DNA of 34,338 nucleotides, taken from positions 1 through 34,338 of IMG/VR virus record IMGVR_UViG_3300025889_000458, one strand, 5' to 3'. The translations under genes were made by a program, and so were the position numbers. This document shows, in pieces, positions 1,711-34,338 of this stretch (position 1 is the stretch's first letter; every line of letters begins with the position of its first letter). The DNA comes from a virus. The notes beneath the pieces are model-generated. The model worked only from the letters and a program-made list of their open reading frames with translations. It was not told where the DNA came from and ran no database searches.

Positions 1711-2403
1711 TTAGGATGGGGTGGTCTCAACTATTAGATGTCGCTCCACGTCGGCCAATGCCGGAACACCGGCCCGTCTTGCCAAGGCGGCACGGGCTAC
1801 TTCTTGCGTGGCTTGCTGTACTTGCTGCGCCGAAAAGCCTTTATTTGCCAATCGGTTAGCCGCGCCCAGTTCTTGGTCGGCACGTTTAAACTGGCCGGTG
1901 GTGCGCTCAACGGCGGTCGCATAGGCCGACGCGAGAGAGAGGGCGAGAGAGCGCGAGAGAGCGAGAGAGGTTTCGTCCTCCCCCAAACCCCCTTTTACTT
2001 CATCTATAGGCTCGGGGTCAGTCGCTAGTCTAATGCGGTCAGCGCTGGCTATATCCTCGCGGCTGGGCTTCGCCTCGTCGCCCAGCCAAAGGACTTGATA
2101 ACGGTTGGTTTTCCAACCTGACGCCGTTTCCTGGTAGTCCTTTGGTCGAAGCTGCCTAACGTAGCCAGCCGCCTTTAGGCGTTGCACCGCGTCAAAGATG
2201 CTTTTCTCGGTCTTATGACCGCTTATCAACCGCATCGTCTCCATAGCGGGCCAGCACACCCCGGCGCGATTAACGAATGCGCACATTGCCCCTAAAACGC
2301 GCCTGTCAGCGTCTTTTAGCCGCTTGTCGCCAAACGCCCTACTCGGGACAATCGACCACGGCCATTTGCCCTCCGGCAGCTTAGAAGGGGATGTCATCGT
2401 CAT
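1711..2403 (-). CDS. Winged-helix replication-initiator-like protein
   Basis: Residues about 16-107 read as a winged-helix domain of the HTH_36/replication-protein-O type: DADRRVLGAMCAF, then GVCWPAMETMRL, KSIFDAVQRLKAAGYV, and a wing ending GWKTNRYQVLW. Such proteins bind iterated origin or operator sites. Residues about 146-159 are a Ser-Leu-Ala-rich linker encoded by a GA/CT-rich repeat, and the C-terminal quarter is Ala/Gln-rich and helical (KGFSAQQVQQATQEVARAA). The start (ATG 2403, or ATG 2397) overlaps the preceding gene by 23 bases, exactly over codons for that protein's DDDIPF tail. I infer an O-like initiator or early regulator; the iteron region lies just upstream of this gene pair. 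Confidence 0.7.
   Translation of the reverse strand: MTMTSPSKLPEGKWPWSIVPSRAFGDKRLKDADRRVLGAMCAFVNRAGVCWPAMETMRLISGHKTEKSIFDAVQRLKAAGYVRQLRPKDYQETASGWKTNRYQVLWLGDEAKPSREDIASADRIRLATDPEPIDEVKGGLGEDETSLALSRSLALSLASAYATAVERTTGQFKRADQELGAANRLANKGFSAQQVQQATQEVARAALARRAGVPALADVERHLIVETTPS
1931..1970. repeat. GAGAGAGCG-type low-complexity repeat inside the winged-helix gene
   Basis: The + strand shows repeated GAGAGAGCG-like units; the coding strand therefore reads CTCTCTCGC repeats that encode Ser-Leu-Ala-Leu-Ser. It sits between the DNA-binding and C-terminal regions, where length changes by slippage would be tolerated in multiples of three. Confidence 0.7.
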
Positions 2404-2965
2404 ATACCTCAGCCTTCCGCGATCCCGTGACAGTCGCGCCGGGAAACGCGGCCTTTACAATGTCCGCCGCCTTCGCGGCTTCATTAGTCGCCAGAAGGTT
2501 GGCGATCTCCTCAACGCTGTACACTAGCACGTTCTCGCCTTTCCGCTGGCGCGCCACCTTCCCGGCTTCGTGGTGATCCGGGCAGACGCAAAGAACGCGC
2601 CCGTCTGCCATTGGGGCGTCCCAGAACCGGCCTTCAAGCGGCTTGTGGCCAGCCGAGAGCGCGGCAGCTTCCAGCGCCGCGTATCCGCGCAGCGTCACGC
2701 TAACTTGATGGGCCACCTCGCGATGGTCAACCGCGCTTATCGCTTCGTTCATTCGATACACTTGCTGATAAAAGCGCTCCCGCAGCGCCGGGCTGGCAAG
2801 ATCGGCCAGCCGGTCGCGCCCCCAGCGCTCCTCATACGCCGTCGCGGCCTTGTCAAACTCCAGAACCGCGCTTTGCGTTTTGTCATATGCCGAGGCCGAG
2901 GCGTATTGCGTGACCCGGCTCATTGACCTGTTGGGCTTCTTCGCCCGGACTTTTTTAAGGCTCAA
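2381..2965 (-). CDS. Unknown 194-aa protein ending in an SSB-type DDDIPF tail
   Basis: The protein starts at TTG 2965, supported by AGGAGG seven bases upstream. Residues 1-16 are basic. Residues 30-105 look helical (YEERWGRDRLADLASPALRERF, REVAHQVSVTLRGYAALEA), and residues 107-165 look mixed alpha/beta. The last six residues, DDDIPF, equal the C-terminal hexapeptide of bacterial SSB, which docks RecO, PriA, DnaG, ExoI and other partners. I see no OB-fold pattern. I recall similar helical segments in alphaproteobacterial phage proteins, without a known function. It is the first gene of the leftward unit and is directly coupled to the initiator-like gene. A role in recruiting host replication proteins is inference. 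Confidence 0.75.
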   Translation of the reverse strand: MSLKKVRAKKPNRSMSRVTQYASASAYDKTQSAVLEFDKAATAYEERWGRDRLADLASPALRERFYQQVYRMNEAISAVDHREVAHQVSVTLRGYAALEAAALSAGHKPLEGRFWDAPMADGRVLCVCPDHHEAGKVARQRKGENVLVYSVEEIANLLATNEAAKAADIVKAAFPGATVTGSRKAEVYDDDIPF

Positions 2966-2980
2966 ATTGACCTCCTATTT

Positions 2981-2989
2981 TCTATAGCA
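2981..2989 (-). promoter_or_regulatory. Possible extended -10 promoter for the leftward unit
   Basis: Read leftward, TGCTATAGA matches an extended -10 (TGnTATAnT) about 16 bases ahead of the TTG start. There is no good -35 at 17 bases; that position carries a GTACGCA iteron. This suits a promoter controlled by a protein bound at the iterons, but is only suggestive. Confidence 0.35.
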
Positions 2990-3006
2990 GATACGTGGTT
3001 CGGTAC

Positions 3007-3037
3007 GCATACGCCCCCCTATAGGGGGGGCGTATGC
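3007..3037. promoter_or_regulatory. 31-bp near-perfect palindrome
   Basis: GCATACG + six C, then TATA, then seven G + CGTATGC: arms of 13 and 14 bases around a four-base TATA centre. It would form a very stable cruciform or hairpin. It carries no T run, so it is more likely a protein site or origin structure than a terminator. Confidence 0.75.
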
Positions 3038-3067
3038 TGCGTACCTGCTAACCGTTTCGGTTCGGAG

Positions 3068-3087
3068 CTGCGTACGCGTTCGCGAAC
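3068..3087. repeat. 20-bp direct repeat, copy 1
   Basis: Bases 3068-3087 are identical to 3132-3151, start to start 64 bp. Each copy contains TGCGTAC fused to the palindrome GTTCGCGAAC. Confidence 0.85.
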
Positions 3088-3131
3088 CACCTCAAAACCC
3101 TAGCATTTCCGCGCCTTTCGCGCCCATAAAA

Positions 3132-3151
3132 CTGCGTACGCGTTCGCGAAC
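3132..3151. repeat. 20-bp direct repeat, copy 2
   Basis: Perfect second copy of 3068-3087 in the same orientation, again followed by a short AT-richer stretch. Confidence 0.85.
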
Positions 3152-3270
3152 GTGCCCACATACGAAAAAACACGTACGCAAAACGGTTCGCACCCTCTGC
3201 GTACCTGCGTACGTGTAACTCATTATATACAGGCTATATCCCGGCGTCATAAAAAAGTGCTCGCTGGGGG

Positions 3271-3299
3271 TTGACTACTGTTTATATCGCTCGTATATC
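3271..3299 (+). promoter_or_regulatory. Sigma70-type promoter for the rightward block
   Basis: TTGACT at 3271-3276 and TATATC at 3294-3299 are 17 bases apart, the ideal spacing. The predicted start, near 3306, leaves a short leader before the AGGAGG-led 22-aa peptide at 3333. Confidence 0.6.
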
Positions 3300-3332
3300 G
3301 TTGGTTACACTGAAACATAGGAGGATCAACAA

Positions 3333-3401
3333 ATGAATTATGCAATGGGTTTCTTTTTAGTTTGCTGCACTACCGTAGCGGCCTTTCAGATGTTCGGCTA
3401 A
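3333..3401 (+). CDS. 22-aa hydrophobic peptide (leader of the rightward block)
   Basis: ATG 3333 follows a strong TAGGAGG site. The peptide begins MNYAMGFFLVCCTTVAAF and is hydrophobic through its length, enough for one membrane pass, with paired Cys at residues 11-12. It is the first frame after the predicted promoter and ends 15 bases before the SprT-like gene, with a new AGGAGG between them. It could be a small membrane protein or simply a translated leader; codon-scale evidence for a real product is limited to the ribosome site. Confidence 0.55.
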   Translation: MNYAMGFFLVCCTTVAAFQMFG

Positions 3402-3416
3402 CAGGAGGAATAGACC

Positions 3417-3995
3417 ATGACCACAAAAGCCGCCACCCGCGAAGACTGGTTGCGCCGCGTAGCACAGGCAATGGAGCCTAAGTTTGCTGCCCTCGACGCG
3501 CCGTTGCCCAAGTATCGCGTTTCTTGCTCTTTTCCCTCGACCGGCGGCTTGGCGCGCAATCGGCGCACCATTGGCCAGTGTTGGTCGCCCGCCGCCAGCG
3601 CGGACGGCACTACTGAAATATTCGTTTCGCCCACCCAAGACGACCCGGTAAACGTCGCCGCCGTTCTGGCGCATGAAATGGTTCACGCTGCCGTATGCAC
3701 CGACGCTGGCCATGGCCCAGCCTTCCGCCGGGTTGCCGTCGCCTTGGGCCTTGAGGGACCAATGACCGCGACCGTTGCGGGCGAAGCGTTTAAACAAATG
3801 ATCGGGCCGATCCTTGCAAAGGCCGGGAATTATCCGCACGCGAAGCTGGACGCCAGCCAGCGCAAAAAACAGACGACGCGCTTGGTCAAATGCCAGTGCT
3901 CGACATGTGGTTACACGGTTAGGACGACCGCCAAATGGCTAGACGCCATGGGCGCGCCGCTTTGCCCGGCGCACGGGGAAATGGACGTTTCCTAA
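3417..3995 (+). CDS. SprT-like zinc metalloprotease
   Basis: This 192-aa protein has the SprT-like active site VLAHEMVHAAVC (HEMVH at residues 86-90) with a third likely zinc ligand His99 in GHGPAFRRVAVALGL. A C-terminal zinc ribbon follows: KCQCSTCGYTVRTT (Cys161 and Cys164) and CPAH (Cys183 and His186). This is the domain order of SprT/Spartan-like proteins; eukaryotic Spartan degrades DNA-protein crosslinks, while bacterial SprT is poorly defined. ATG 3417 has AGGAGG 10 bases upstream. Its place as the first full gene of the probable early block suggests it acts on a host or DNA-bound protein soon after infection. That role is inference. Confidence 0.85.
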   Translation: MTTKAATREDWLRRVAQAMEPKFAALDAPLPKYRVSCSFPSTGGLARNRRTIGQCWSPAASADGTTEIFVSPTQDDPVNVAAVLAHEMVHAAVCTDAGHGPAFRRVAVALGLEGPMTATVAGEAFKQMIGPILAKAGNYPHAKLDASQRKKQTTRLVKCQCSTCGYTVRTTAKWLDAMGAPLCPAHGEMDVS

Positions 3996-4008
3996 GATTG
4001 CCCCGGTT

Positions 4009-4030
4009 CCGGCCCGCTACGGCGGGCCGG
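4009..4030 (+). other. Nine-pair GC hairpin with TACG tetraloop
   Basis: CCGGCCCGC pairs perfectly with its complement around TACG, a C(UNCG)G-type ultrastable loop in RNA. No T run follows, so it is more likely an mRNA-stability or processing element between the SprT-like gene and the next gene than a terminator. Confidence 0.6.
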
Positions 4031-4069
4031 TTCCCGGTCAATCACGACCGACAACAGGAAGGAAAACCA

Positions 4070-4312
4070 ATGTCACACTTTTACGCATCAATCCCAACAT
4101 CATCCCGCAAAACCGTAGCGACCGCACGCGGCCATAAATCGACGGGCCTTGAGGTCCGCGCGGCATCATGGGCGGGCGCAGTTAGCGTAACGCTGCGCCA
4201 TTGCGAGACTACGGGCCGCGACCTTTTCGAGGTGTGGCAGGAACCGCACCACGGTCAGGGCGTTCATGTCCTGATCGCTGAGGGCGTCGTCGGCCAGGAG
4301 GACGCGGCATGA
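4070..4312 (+). CDS. Hypothetical 80-aa early protein
   Basis: I chose ATG 4070 (MSHFYASIPT) because AGGAAGGA precedes it by about 8 bases and it follows the GC hairpin; the open frame continues upstream to 3935 without a ribosome site. The product is predicted beta-rich (TGLEVRAASWAGAVSVTLRH, DLFEVWQEP, GVHVLIAEG), consistent with a small single-domain protein. The stop overlaps the next ATG (ATGA). I do not recognise it. Confidence 0.7.
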   Translation: MSHFYASIPTSSRKTVATARGHKSTGLEVRAASWAGAVSVTLRHCETTGRDLFEVWQEPHHGQGVHVLIAEGVVGQEDAA

Positions 4313-4773
4313 AAATCCCAGTCAAAACCATTGCAACGGAAAAAGTCTACGCCACACCTGAATTCTGGGACGCGGGCTACGCTCAACGGGTCGAGGCTGC
4401 GCTGCTGTCCGTCAATGGCCGCGCGCGTTCGTTCACGCTTGCAACGTATGGCGACGTTCGCGCCGTCGTAGACAAGGTTGAGGAACGCCTGGACCGCCTT
4501 GGTGTTTCTAAGAGTAACCGGCTCGGCGCGGAGATAACCTTCGTGCCTGGCGGCCCGGGGTCTAATAGCTACAGGCACGCCGCGATTTCTACCAAAATCA
4601 CGTTGATCAGGACGAGCGGTGGCTGGTTTCTGGTTGGCGTTGAGCGGGATCTGGTCTACCCAACATCAAGCGAGCGTTTGAAAATCGCGTTATCTCGCGA
4701 CGGCTGCGAACAAATTGTTGCGGTCGCGATGCGCGATATCGTTGAGGTCGAACAAATGCAACAGGTGGCGTAA
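4309..4773 (+). CDS. Hypothetical 154-aa early protein
   Basis: It starts at ATG 4309 in an ATGA overlap with the gene before, and GCCAGGAGGAC serves as ribosome site. An N-terminal helix region (VEAALLSVNGRARS, DVRAVVDKVEERLDRLGVS) is followed by beta strands (AEITFVPGG, TKITLIRTSGGWFLVGVERDLV). There is no nuclease or metal motif. It ends in a TAATG junction with the next gene. Function unknown. Confidence 0.7.
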   Translation: MKIPVKTIATEKVYATPEFWDAGYAQRVEAALLSVNGRARSFTLATYGDVRAVVDKVEERLDRLGVSKSNRLGAEITFVPGGPGSNSYRHAAISTKITLIRTSGGWFLVGVERDLVYPTSSERLKIALSRDGCEQIVAVAMRDIVEVEQMQQVA

Positions 4774-5228
4774 TGGGGCGCGGAATGACTATCCAGGAAC
4801 TAGCAACGGAAGCCCTCGCAACATTCGTTCGTAAAAAATGCGCGAACGGAGAGCCCTATTATCACTCAACCGCCGACGACAACTGGATCACGGGCATGAT
4901 CTACTCGGCCCACGGCGGCATGCCGCCCGACGATCACAAATACGACATGATCCACTCGGCACTACATGCCATCGCATACGACAATGCCGATCCCGACGAT
5001 ATGTTAGAAACCGCAGACAGCATGGTTAGCGTCTACTATAACGCCCGCAGCGCGTGGCTCTCATCACACGGCGAGCGCCGAGACTATGTAAACGATGCCA
5101 CAAGCGAATATGGCCCGCGTGACGATATCTCGGACGCTATCGCGCAAGGTTGGTTCATGGAGGCAATGGAGGTCTGCGCGAGTGTCGTCAAATCCCTGCG
5201 GGATGAACTAGACAACCGCGAAGAGTAA
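4773..5228 (+). CDS. Hypothetical 151-aa acidic protein
   Basis: The ATG at 4773 shares a base with the previous stop (TAATG); a second Met at 4785 (MTIQEL) is an alternative. The protein is acidic and helical with paired motifs PDDHKYDMIHSALHAI and PDDMLETADSMVSVYYNARSAWL. The second of these recalls a widespread but uncharacterised phage and plasmid protein family in which a segment with Tyr-Tyr and Ala-Trp near the C-terminus is conserved. Its small size, acidity and place in the probable early block would also fit a host-takeover protein or DNA mimic. No function can be assigned. Confidence 0.7.
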   Translation: MGRGMTIQELATEALATFVRKKCANGEPYYHSTADDNWITGMIYSAHGGMPPDDHKYDMIHSALHAIAYDNADPDDMLETADSMVSVYYNARSAWLSSHGERRDYVNDATSEYGPRDDISDAIAQGWFMEAMEVCASVVKSLRDELDNREE

Positions 5229-5239
5229 ACCGCCCAGTT

Positions 5240-5280
5240 ACGGGGTCTCTGTGGCCCCGTTTCTCGGCTGTTTATGGCCG
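5240..5280 (+). terminator. Two short hairpins, possible attenuator
   Basis: ACGGGG pairs with CCCCGT (5240-5245 with 5255-5260) and is followed by TTCTC; CGGC pairs with GCCG (5265-5268 with 5277-5280) and is followed by GTTTTG. Both T tails are weak. The next gene lies only 22 bases downstream, so this probably tunes rather than ends transcription. Confidence 0.35.
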
Positions 5281-5301
5281 GTTTTGAGGAGAGGGAGATC
5301 A

Positions 5302-5610
5302 ATGATTATCGGAACGGTTAGAGTCGAAGAGTCCCGTGCCTACGATAGCCACGCGGGTTATCATCAATTCCATGCCGAAGAAACCCAGGAACCGTATGGT
5401 TCGTTTGAGGTGTTTTGGCACCAGGATGAACCGGCCCCAGAACTAGCAACGTGTCGCGGCAAGGCCCCAGGCTGGTATTGGTGGGCATGCTCTCCCGGCT
5501 GTATGCCAGATGGAGAGCCTGTGGGGCCGTTCGCCTATTCACAGCAAGCGCACCAAGATGCCGACGAATGGTCGCCTGAATATGACGACGAATTCGAGAA
5601 GATCGTATGA
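5302..5610 (+). CDS. Hypothetical 102-aa Trp-rich protein
   Basis: ATG 5302 (MIIGTVRVEE) has GGAGAGGGAG upstream and is preferred over the upstream in-frame ATG 5251, which lies inside the hairpin region. Trp and Cys are dense: GSFEVFWHQDEP, GWYWWACSPGCMPDGEPVGPF, then an acidic end (DADEWSPEYDDEFEKIV). The GWYWW-C-PGC-PDGEP-GPF stretch is a signature I recall from small phage proteins of unknown function. Its stop overlaps the next ATG (ATGA). Confidence 0.75.
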   Translation: MIIGTVRVEESRAYDSHAGYHQFHAEETQEPYGSFEVFWHQDEPAPELATCRGKAPGWYWWACSPGCMPDGEPVGPFAYSQQAHQDADEWSPEYDDEFEKIV

Positions 5611-5699
5611 TCCGCGCCGTTGTATTAGACCTAGTCGCACTCGGCTGCATGCTGGGGGCGGTTTACCTTGTGGCCGTGGTTTTATGGGCCGTGCTTTAA
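5607..5699 (+). CDS. 30-aa single-pass membrane peptide
   Basis: ATG 5607 sits in an ATGA overlap with the Trp-rich gene. After MIRAVVLDL the peptide is hydrophobic to the end (CMLGAVYLVAVVLWAVL), enough for one transmembrane helix. It closes the rightward block, and its TAA overlaps the stop of the leftward primase-helicase. The role is unknown; the coupling and clean hydrophobic profile make it likely to be made. Confidence 0.6.
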   Translation: MIRAVVLDLVALGCMLGAVYLVAVVLWAVL

Positions 5700-7549
5700 C
5701 CTAGATAGCATCTTTTCTCAGCGGAAATAAAAACGAATCCCCGATCCACAAGGCGTTGACGCGCAGACGATAGCGTTGACGCCTTGTGGTCTGGGTAGCG
5801 CTCGCGACATGCGGCCACCCATTCCTCAATATGCGGGCGTTGGCCGTGCGCAAATCGTTCATCAAATGCGCCCAGTTCCCGCAGTACGTCCAAAACTAGG
5901 CCCGCCGTACCCTTCGGGTTTTCGCGACCGCCCGGCGTTGCGGCATCGCGCGCCGGGCGCAGTACCAGGGACGAACCGCCGACGATTGCGACCGTCGCCA
6001 ACTCAAACGAAATAGGCTCACCTTGTTCTGCGTCTTTCTGCTTTTCGACCTTCATTGTCAGCAAGTCGCCGTTGCGCTCGGTCTTGATCGATGCATATAC
6101 ACCGGCCAATAGCGACGACGATCCGCGCAGCCCGCGCGCAACGTCTTTCCCGCTGTGGTGGATGCCTAGGACCGCCGCGCGGCAGTGTCGCTTCACGGTT
6201 TCCGCCGCTTCAACGAAAACGCCCATGGCCTTGGCGTCGTTCTCGTCCTCGCCTACGAGCGACCGGGCCACCGTGTCGATTACCACCAACGACAGGGGCG
6301 CGGCGAGACGATCAATTGTCGCGATTAGCTTGGCCAGTTGCTCGCCATCGACCATCGCCACCGCGCGCGGCACTACGAAGAATGGCGGGTTGCCTTTCAC
6401 CGCGTTGGCAAATTGCCACGACTTCACGCGCTGGCCCATCCCGCCGACGCCTTCGCCTGCGATGTACAGCACCGCGCCCTTCTTGGTCGCCTTGCCATGC
6501 CACGCGCGGCCCGCCGCGACGTGCAGCGCGATGTCTAGCGCTGCGAAGGATTTACCCGCCCCCGGCGGGCCGTACAAAACCGAAAACTCTGCATCCGGCA
6601 GCACGCCGTCAACTAGCCACTCGACCGGAGGCTTTGCACGCACAGCGCGAATGTCCAAAACCTCGAACGTGTCGGGCAGCACTTCGCCAGCCTCAGCTTC
6701 GACATGGTCAGGGCTAGGCGCGGCGTCAAAATTCTCTGAATCTCCAAAAACGACAGGGGCGCTGCGAACTATTTCTAACAAGTCCTCCACAGTTTTGCCG
6801 CTTTTTAGAAAATCAACGACATCCTGCTTTTCTTCCAGGTCGGGCAAGTGGGCAATCTTGATCTGGGTCGTTGACTTGTCCAGCGAGGCGATGACGGCGT
6901 TGGCGTATTTGTCTCCCGCCGCGTCATTGTCTGGCAGCACGACGATATTGCGCCCGTTTAAATGCTTTGCGTGGTGTGGCCGCCAACCGTTGCAACCCTG
7001 GCTCGCGGTTGTCGCCAACAGGCCCAGCCTGCTTAACGCATGGACGCACTTCTCTCCCTCAACGACGAAGACAGGATCGTCGGGCCGGGCCAGTAAGTCC
7101 GGCAATTTATACAGCGGCATCTCGATACCATTGATACCCGCCACCCGTCGGCCCGCCTCGTATCGGTATTGCAGGAATCTCTTGCCGCCGTCCCTGTCCA
7201 CGCGGCGCTCGACCTCTGCCACAATCTCGCCAGATTCGTTGACGTAGGGATAGATGGCCTCTCGCCACTCGCGCGGCTCAAGTCTGCCCTGATCCTTTCG
7301 CGCGATGCCGAACTTCTTCTCTAGCAGTTCGGGGATCGACTTCAGCCCTGCCCCCTCGTGGCGGCGCACAAGGTCAACAACGCCGCCGCCTTCCTGATCC
7401 TCGAACGAATACCAAGTCCCGGTGGCAAGGTCGAGCGACATGCTGCCGTTGGTCCCCCAACGCAACTCCCTGGAAGTAGAATACTTGGGATTTGGCTCCC
7501 CAAGGTATGCCGTCGCTACCGTGCGAGCGTGCGCCGCGATGTTAGTCAT
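5696..7549 (-). CDS. Toprim primase / RepA-type helicase fusion
   Basis: This 617-aa protein combines two replication enzymes. Residues about 155-225 form a Toprim domain: FVVEGEKCVHAL (VEGEK at 163-167) and VVLPDNDAAGDKYA (205-217), which bind metal for primer synthesis. Residues about 305-500 form a RepA/AAA_25-like RecA-fold ATPase: Walker A GPPGAGKS (327-334), Walker B LVVIDT (421-426) and a GIHHSGKD loop (462-469). The N-terminus has GTWYSFEDQEGGGVVDLV in place of a classic zinc-binding domain. ATG 7549 has AGGAGG upstream. It is the last gene of block 3 and, with the initiator-like protein, is the only core replisome function visible; DNA polymerase must come from the host. Confidence 0.9.
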   Translation of the reverse strand: MTNIAAHARTVATAYLGEPNPKYSTSRELRWGTNGSMSLDLATGTWYSFEDQEGGGVVDLVRRHEGAGLKSIPELLEKKFGIARKDQGRLEPREWREAIYPYVNESGEIVAEVERRVDRDGGKRFLQYRYEAGRRVAGINGIEMPLYKLPDLLARPDDPVFVVEGEKCVHALSRLGLLATTASQGCNGWRPHHAKHLNGRNIVVLPDNDAAGDKYANAVIASLDKSTTQIKIAHLPDLEEKQDVVDFLKSGKTVEDLLEIVRSAPVVFGDSENFDAAPSPDHVEAEAGEVLPDTFEVLDIRAVRAKPPVEWLVDGVLPDAEFSVLYGPPGAGKSFAALDIALHVAAGRAWHGKATKKGAVLYIAGEGVGGMGQRVKSWQFANAVKGNPPFFVVPRAVAMVDGEQLAKLIATIDRLAAPLSLVVIDTVARSLVGEDENDAKAMGVFVEAAETVKRHCRAAVLGIHHSGKDVARGLRGSSSLLAGVYASIKTERNGDLLTMKVEKQKDAEQGEPISFELATVAIVGGSSLVLRPARDAATPGGRENPKGTAGLVLDVLRELGAFDERFAHGQRPHIEEWVAACRERYPDHKASTLSSARQRLVDRGFVFISAEKRCYLG

Positions 7550-34176: not shown

Positions 34177-34338
34177 TAGGCAACGTCATCCGGCGTTCTA
34201 ACCGTAGCGATTGCCTCGCCACAAGAGCCACAGACGACATCCACGCTATATTCGTACAGTCGTCCGCGCGTCTGCTGGCCACAAAAATCACAGGTAACGT
34301 GATTGTCGTAGTACCTGATAAAACGCGGGTTGCCGCCC
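34176..34338 (-). CDS. Small zinc-ribbon protein, C-terminal part (gene crosses contig junction)
   Basis: This is the remainder of the gene starting at 167. Bases 34195-34338 duplicate the left end; the unique part 34176-34194 supplies the last codons (TPDDVA, stop). Both cysteine pairs can be read in this copy. See the entry at 1-167 for function. Confidence 0.75.
   Translation of the reverse strand, partial: GGNPRFIRYYDNHVTCDFCGQQTRGRLYEYSVDVVCGSCGEAIATVRTPDDVA
34195..34338. repeat. Right copy of 144-bp terminal direct repeat
   Basis: Matches bases 1-144 except T at 34212 for C at 18. See the left copy. Confidence 0.9.

Follow-up and report, generated by a model that had tools for sequence, protein, structure and literature searches.

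The C-terminal domain of SaPI Rep recognises iterons that lie directly downstream of its own gene (PMC7581432), and the winged helix of the P4 alpha protein binds the repeats of the P4 origin (PMC4234260). In phage lambda, the iterons are found inside the O gene (PMC7466680). The locus compared here with these systems is an iteron array in a viral genome. The DNA analysed, hereafter the window, is 34,338 bp long and corresponds to positions 1-34,338 of the IMG/VR virus record IMGVR_UViG_3300025889_000458. The candidate origin proposed in a first-pass annotation of this DNA is well supported by comparison, through its conservation, the presence of equivalent arrays 3' of helicase genes in other phages, and co-variation between array and protein. 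By these sequence comparisons, the array is quite probably a replication origin read by the C-terminal domain (CTD) of a primase-helicase, of the same working type as SaPI Rep and P4 alpha.

The proposed initiator is encoded at 5696..7549 (minus strand) and combines the Pfam domains TOPRIM and AAA_25, the latter a RepA-type helicase, with the CTD. Initiators of self-recognising helicase origins carry the replicative helicase, often along with the primase, and the 5696-7549 product does so as well. RSF1010 RepA (1g8y, E = 0.0034) is the only solved relative found for the helicase. RSF1010, with RepA, RepB', RepC and oriV, is alike in its RepA-type ring helicase and in having iterons and hairpins at the origin, but its iteron recognition (RepC), helicase and primase reside in separate proteins, which here are apparently fused. 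Compared with SaPI Rep and SCCmec Cch2, the window helicase is RepA/AAA_25 (RecA-like), whereas Cch and Cch2 are of the DUF927 or D5/Primase_Cterm types; the Pfam assignment is AAA_25 (RepA-like), and neither a D5/SF3-type nor a DUF927 domain was found. Further differences from SaPI Rep are that the gene is here a core gene of free phages and that in the window a gene cassette has displaced the array. P4 alpha has a TOPRIM primase, a helicase and a C-terminal winged helix that binds the origin repeats in one protein; the window protein would share this plan, with a putative winged-helix-like CTD as the proposed reader of the array. The P4 alpha helicase is SF3-type and thus of another family than the window protein. 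Because the helicase domain lies outside the SaPI Rep and P4 alpha families, the system is filed as working like them and not as a member. A second site like P4 crr was looked for in the window and not found. A possible one, recalling crr, is present in MW202711 as a cluster of five GGGACA copies at L024:7233-7329, about 1.4 kb from its main array. Lambda O/ori is alike in having iterons beside a low-GC region and a recognition domain that is exchangeable with the iterons as one module, but O is a loader adaptor, and the O-like gene of the window does not track the array.

No description of this arrangement was found in the open-licence literature, and the terms iteron, repeat and origin of replication are all absent from the CRP phage paper. 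The first-pass annotation had held that no named family has this motif set. That stands for the exact word and fails for the arrangement of iterons and a palindrome 3' of a helicase gene, which resembles the origins used by SaPI Rep and P4 alpha.

The Iteron Array and Its Surroundings

The two ends of the record (1-144 and 34195-34338) share 144 bp, apart from one mismatch, and a contig of a relative (L005) reads across this junction; the genome is therefore circular, circularly permuted or terminally redundant. A head-tail adaptor together with internal virion and tail proteins suggests a podovirus-like phage. Genome contigs were scanned for the 194-aa protein encoded beside the array as an indication of host or prophage, with zero matches.

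The iteron array (2995..3216, unstranded) consists of GGTWCGCA copies in both orientations, some of which overlap as palindromes (TGCGTACGCR and GTTCGCGAAC). The inventory drawn up in the first-pass annotation was recovered in full. Seven copies of TGCGTAC occur in the entire 34,338-bp window, all within 3003-3212, five on the plus strand (3038, 3069, 3133, 3198 and 3206) and two on the minus strand (3003 and 3174). The perfect 20-bp repeat (CTGCGTACGCGTTCGCGAAC) is present at 3068..3087 and again, 64 bp away, at 3132..3151, and the two GTTCGCGAAC palindromes lie at 3078 and 3142, with no other copy in the window. The two motifs earlier listed separately, TGCGTAC and GTTCGCGAAC, both resolve into a single 8-bp iteron, GGTWCGCA, present in direct and inverted orientation. 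Reverse-complementing GGTACGCA gives TGCGTACC; the GTTCGCGAAC palindrome consists of two inverted, overlapping copies of GGTTCGC, and TGCGTACGCR of two inverted, overlapping copies of GTACGCA. One 7-mer is found seven times in the 370-bp gap, compared with at most four when the gap is dinucleotide-shuffled 300 times, and 11 matches to GGTWCGCA with up to one mismatch fall within 220 bp (at most four in 30 whole-window shuffles). In an agnostic 7-mer test over the whole window the margin is small (7 vs 4-6, mostly CG-runs), so conservation is the stronger evidence for the array. Both the array and its word are kept in the close relatives L003/L007 and L004, with array DNA 86% (L003/L007) and 89% (L004) identical to the window. 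The repeats are genuine, exceed chance expectation and are conserved.

Between the array and the 3' end of the primase-helicase gene lies a rightward accessory cassette (3417..5610, plus strand) with a SprT-like gene and genes of unknown function, and the content of this cassette differs in L004. A 282-aa gene (start MTTLNAKKGAMLRVLSLGAGVQS) beside the O-like gene in L004 (4827-5675) and L006 (1729-2577) is absent from the window.

A GC hairpin, GGTACGCATACGCCCCCC-TATAG-GGGGGGCGTATGCTGCGTACC (3002..3045), is bounded by inverted iterons; the leftward ribosome-binding site follows immediately on its 3' side. The 31-bp GC palindrome noted previously is found at 3007-3037, with perfect 13-bp arms and a 5-nt centre. 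Folded as single-stranded DNA the hairpin has an energy of -22.3 kcal/mol (z = -7.5), and in L003 its arms are altered on both sides, together. The contigs L005 and L006 stop inside it, at window positions 3007 and 3043, suggesting that the hairpin breaks their assembly.

Adjoining the array is a low-GC stretch (3217..3335; 41% GC, compared with 56% for the genome), a candidate for the unwinding region and for the divergent promoters. The leftward sigma-70-like promoter, ATGACG-17-TATAAT (3222..3250, minus strand), is a consensus match only, and the rightward promoter-like sequence, TTGACT-17-TATATC (3271..3299, plus strand), was read by eye; its TTGAC and TATATC are kept in L003/L004. Array motifs had been thought to overlap the leftward -35, but the best leftward site (3250-3222) falls outside the array. 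The array would therefore be in the 5' leader of the leftward transcript, where iteron binding could still impede transcription, and the same binding might, as in the master switch proposed in the first-pass annotation, autoregulate the leftward operon. The expected GC-skew inflection did not materialise: there is no origin-like switch at the array, and the skew follows the coding strand.

Equivalent Arrays in Other Phages

Arrays with other words occur before genes of the 194-aa family in several phages. In the Roseobacter phages the word is TTTGTAGT for CRP-811/823 and TTTATAC for CRP-821/831, and in L020/L021 it is TTCGGATC; each of these arrays has a CCCTTTAGGG or CCCTATAGGG palindrome in the same place. 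The palindromes of the equivalent arrays are of CCCTWTAGGG or CTATATAG type, and MW202711 has GGGACA words and the CTATATAG palindrome before its 194-aa homologue. Like the window, MW202711 has an opposite-strand cassette between the RepA-type gene and the array, so that in neither does the array directly follow the helicase gene (the distance in the window is 2.2 kb). Directly 3' of the helicase gene is where the array is found in the CRP phages and L020, as well as in Idiomarinaceae phage 1N2-2 (CGGTACA) and Rhizobium phage RHph_Y3_1 (TGGGAACG). Since the arrays of 1N2-2 and RHph_Y3_1 follow the primase-helicase gene though other genes come next, the stable association of the array is with the helicase gene. 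Repeats were looked for 3' of the primase gene in Mae-JY30, and none were found. In two more distant AAA_25 loci (L112 and L113), CCGGACA or CGGGACA, words near the GGGACA of MW202711, is repeated 11-13 times 3' of the gene.

With the helicase region of CRP-823 as the query, a scan of IMG/VR recovered 80 loci with 50 distinct 3' regions. The count of a repeated 7-mer exceeded that in all 100 shuffles in 44 of these 50 regions, with a median of 8.5 copies and 24 top words, some being phase variants of others. Among the CRP-type loci the word differs between lineages, with about 20 words, on a layout that is largely constant. In one example the sites lie at positions 1, 11, 57, 66, 76, 88, 108, 117, 136 and 144 after the stop codon, and the CRP-type orientation is ++ ---- ++ hairpin --. 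The layout of the window array is less regular than this.

The Primase-Helicase C-Terminal Domain and the Iteron Word

The proposed iteron reader is the CTD of the primase-helicase (5699..5956, minus strand; aa 532-617), whose sequence co-varies with the word in relatives. It is predicted to be winged-helix-like: the model of the window CTD has three helices and a two-strand hairpin (H-H-H-S-S) at a pLDDT of 70, and the folds listed for it are mostly winged-helix (Zur/Fur, DtxR, KAT6A WH and SSV F-93), all with E above 0.5 and none significant. Within the window lineage the CTD is 94-100% identical and the word is the same, consistent with a link between CTD and word.

In the CRP phages the helicase domain is 98-100% identical throughout, the last ~120 residues come in two types, and the division of the array words matches that of the CTD types. 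A gene-by-gene comparison of four complete CRP genomes showed that no proteins follow the word except the CTD and one 74-aa accessory protein; CTD identity is 98-99% within a motif group and 70-71% between groups. The 74-aa protein is gp19 of CRP-823 (L033, 9534-9758). DNA identity between CRP-823 and CRP-831 stays at 93-98% as far as the domain boundary, falls to 50-78% across exactly the CTD and array, and is 98% afterwards: within replication genes that are nearly identical elsewhere, domain and array were exchanged as one block of ~590 bp.

Over all 1,128 locus pairs, which are phylogenetically non-independent, the AUC for shared words is 0.92 for helicase identity and 0.91 for CTD identity. 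Given that helicase identity predicts sharing equally over all pairs, only the comparison among pairs with similar helicases is decisive, and there the AUC is 0.88 for the CTD vs 0.75 for the helicase. Where helicases are at least 75% identical, words are shared in none of 43 pairs with CTD identity below 50% and in 37 of the 42 with CTD identity of at least 80%. The partial rank correlation between CTD and word, controlling for helicase, is weak (0.15; 3 of 1,000 permutations were as high), the corresponding correlation with word is stronger for helicase than for CTD, and some pairs at 66-83% CTD identity differ in word. This co-variation, seen in CRP-type relatives that are only distantly related to the window protein, indicates that the CTD sets iteron specificity in those phages.

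Alternative Readings of the Array

Two other proteins encoded near the array have been considered as its reader. The O-like winged-helix protein (1711..2403, minus strand; HTH_36), whose binding to the array had been proposed in the first-pass annotation, carries the annotation replication initiation O-like (phrog_391, E = 8e-7), and its gene, in the same operon, is two genes away from the array. In a lambda-like origin this protein would bind the iterons and load the helicase. In L007, however, the N-terminal winged-helix half of the O-like gene (L007:6560-7219) has been replaced and is 43% identical to the window, compared with 91% for the C half, and the array word is unchanged. The DNA-binding domain thus does not co-vary with the iterons as it does in lambda, the O-like protein is unlikely to be the reader, and the earlier proposal is probably wrong. 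Moreover, the arrays of the CRP phages have no annotated O-like gene beside them, none is present in L020, and, unlike the lambda arrangement, no repeat family inside the O-like gene is conserved between relatives. The lambda-type reading was rejected on the strength of the replaced N-domain. Tandem purine repeats (GCGAGAGA) lie inside the O-like gene at 1931-1970; as a candidate origin they were discarded, being absent in L004/L007. A palindrome, CATAATAYATATTATG, at about 1670-1690 just 3' of the O-like gene, is conserved in four contigs. The 194-aa companion protein (2381..2965, minus strand; TTG start, ribosome-binding site AGGAGG, fold unknown) was favoured as reader at first, as it always follows the array. 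In all members of the family that were found (the window group, L020, the CRP phages and MW202711), its gene comes next to the array, and its N-terminus is basic. Recognition of the origin by this protein is nevertheless very unlikely: it is about 90% identical across differing words (88-93% among most CRP phages whatever the word, 96% for 821/831), has no variable segment among the CRP phages, and gave zero matches in a fold search with its model, so that no DNA-binding fold was found, and the arrays of 1N2-2 and RHph_Y3_1 precede genes outside its family. The protein ends in DDDIPF, which resembles the tip of bacterial SSB, and it may recruit host replication proteins. The L020 homologue ends in NDEIPF, and the MW202711 primase-helicase in DDIPFD.

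The array might also serve some purpose other than replication. As a transcriptional operator, it would be bound by a repressor or autoregulator that controls the divergent promoters, with replication starting elsewhere; the divergent promoters do adjoin it, and some of its sites are palindromic. This is improbable, since the best leftward promoter lies upstream of the array and not under it, the CRP phages, 1N2-2 and RHph_Y3_1 have similar arrays 3' of the helicase gene where the genes on either side run in one direction, and the domain that the word tracks is part of a replicative helicase protein. That the element is a structured RNA leader of the leftward operon (an attenuator or regulatory RNA) and not a DNA element is extremely unlikely. 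The array would be transcribed, and the hairpin is strong, with arms that change together in L003, but an Rfam search of 2700-3600 gave zero matches to curated RNA families, the iterons of relatives occur in both orientations at about 10-bp spacing, and the whole iteron set switches word together with the protein domain.

Proposed Mechanism and Implications

For the preferred reading, an origin recognised by the CTD of the primase-helicase, we infer physical binding, origin firing, replication direction, the role of the hairpin and the site of unwinding. Several CTD copies of the primase-helicase (5696-7549) would bind the GGTWCGCA iterons and thereby bring the RepA-type ring helicase and primase to the array. 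The low-GC stretch beside it would then open, and the GC hairpin may aid loading, priming or strand exposure. SaPI Rep (PMC7581432) and P4 alpha (PMC4234260) are described as working in this way. In the window lineage this origin, normally 3' of the helicase gene, would have been displaced by the 2.2-kb accessory cassette.

Whether these loci form a widespread class of marine-phage origin is an evenly balanced question. Such a class would have a largely fixed layout in which the word is swapped wholesale with the CTD of a RepA-type primase-helicase. The pairs of domain and word would form a natural code of specificity, and swapping may allow relatives that co-infect to avoid replication interference. 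If true, this would provide a sequence rule for locating the replication origins of many uncultivated marine phages and would name the protein domain that reads them. It would also supply some 20 naturally paired recognition domains and DNA words in a largely constant layout, and so open two questions to testing: how a winged-helix domain changes its specificity, and whether origin identity serves phages to interfere with, or to tolerate, one another.
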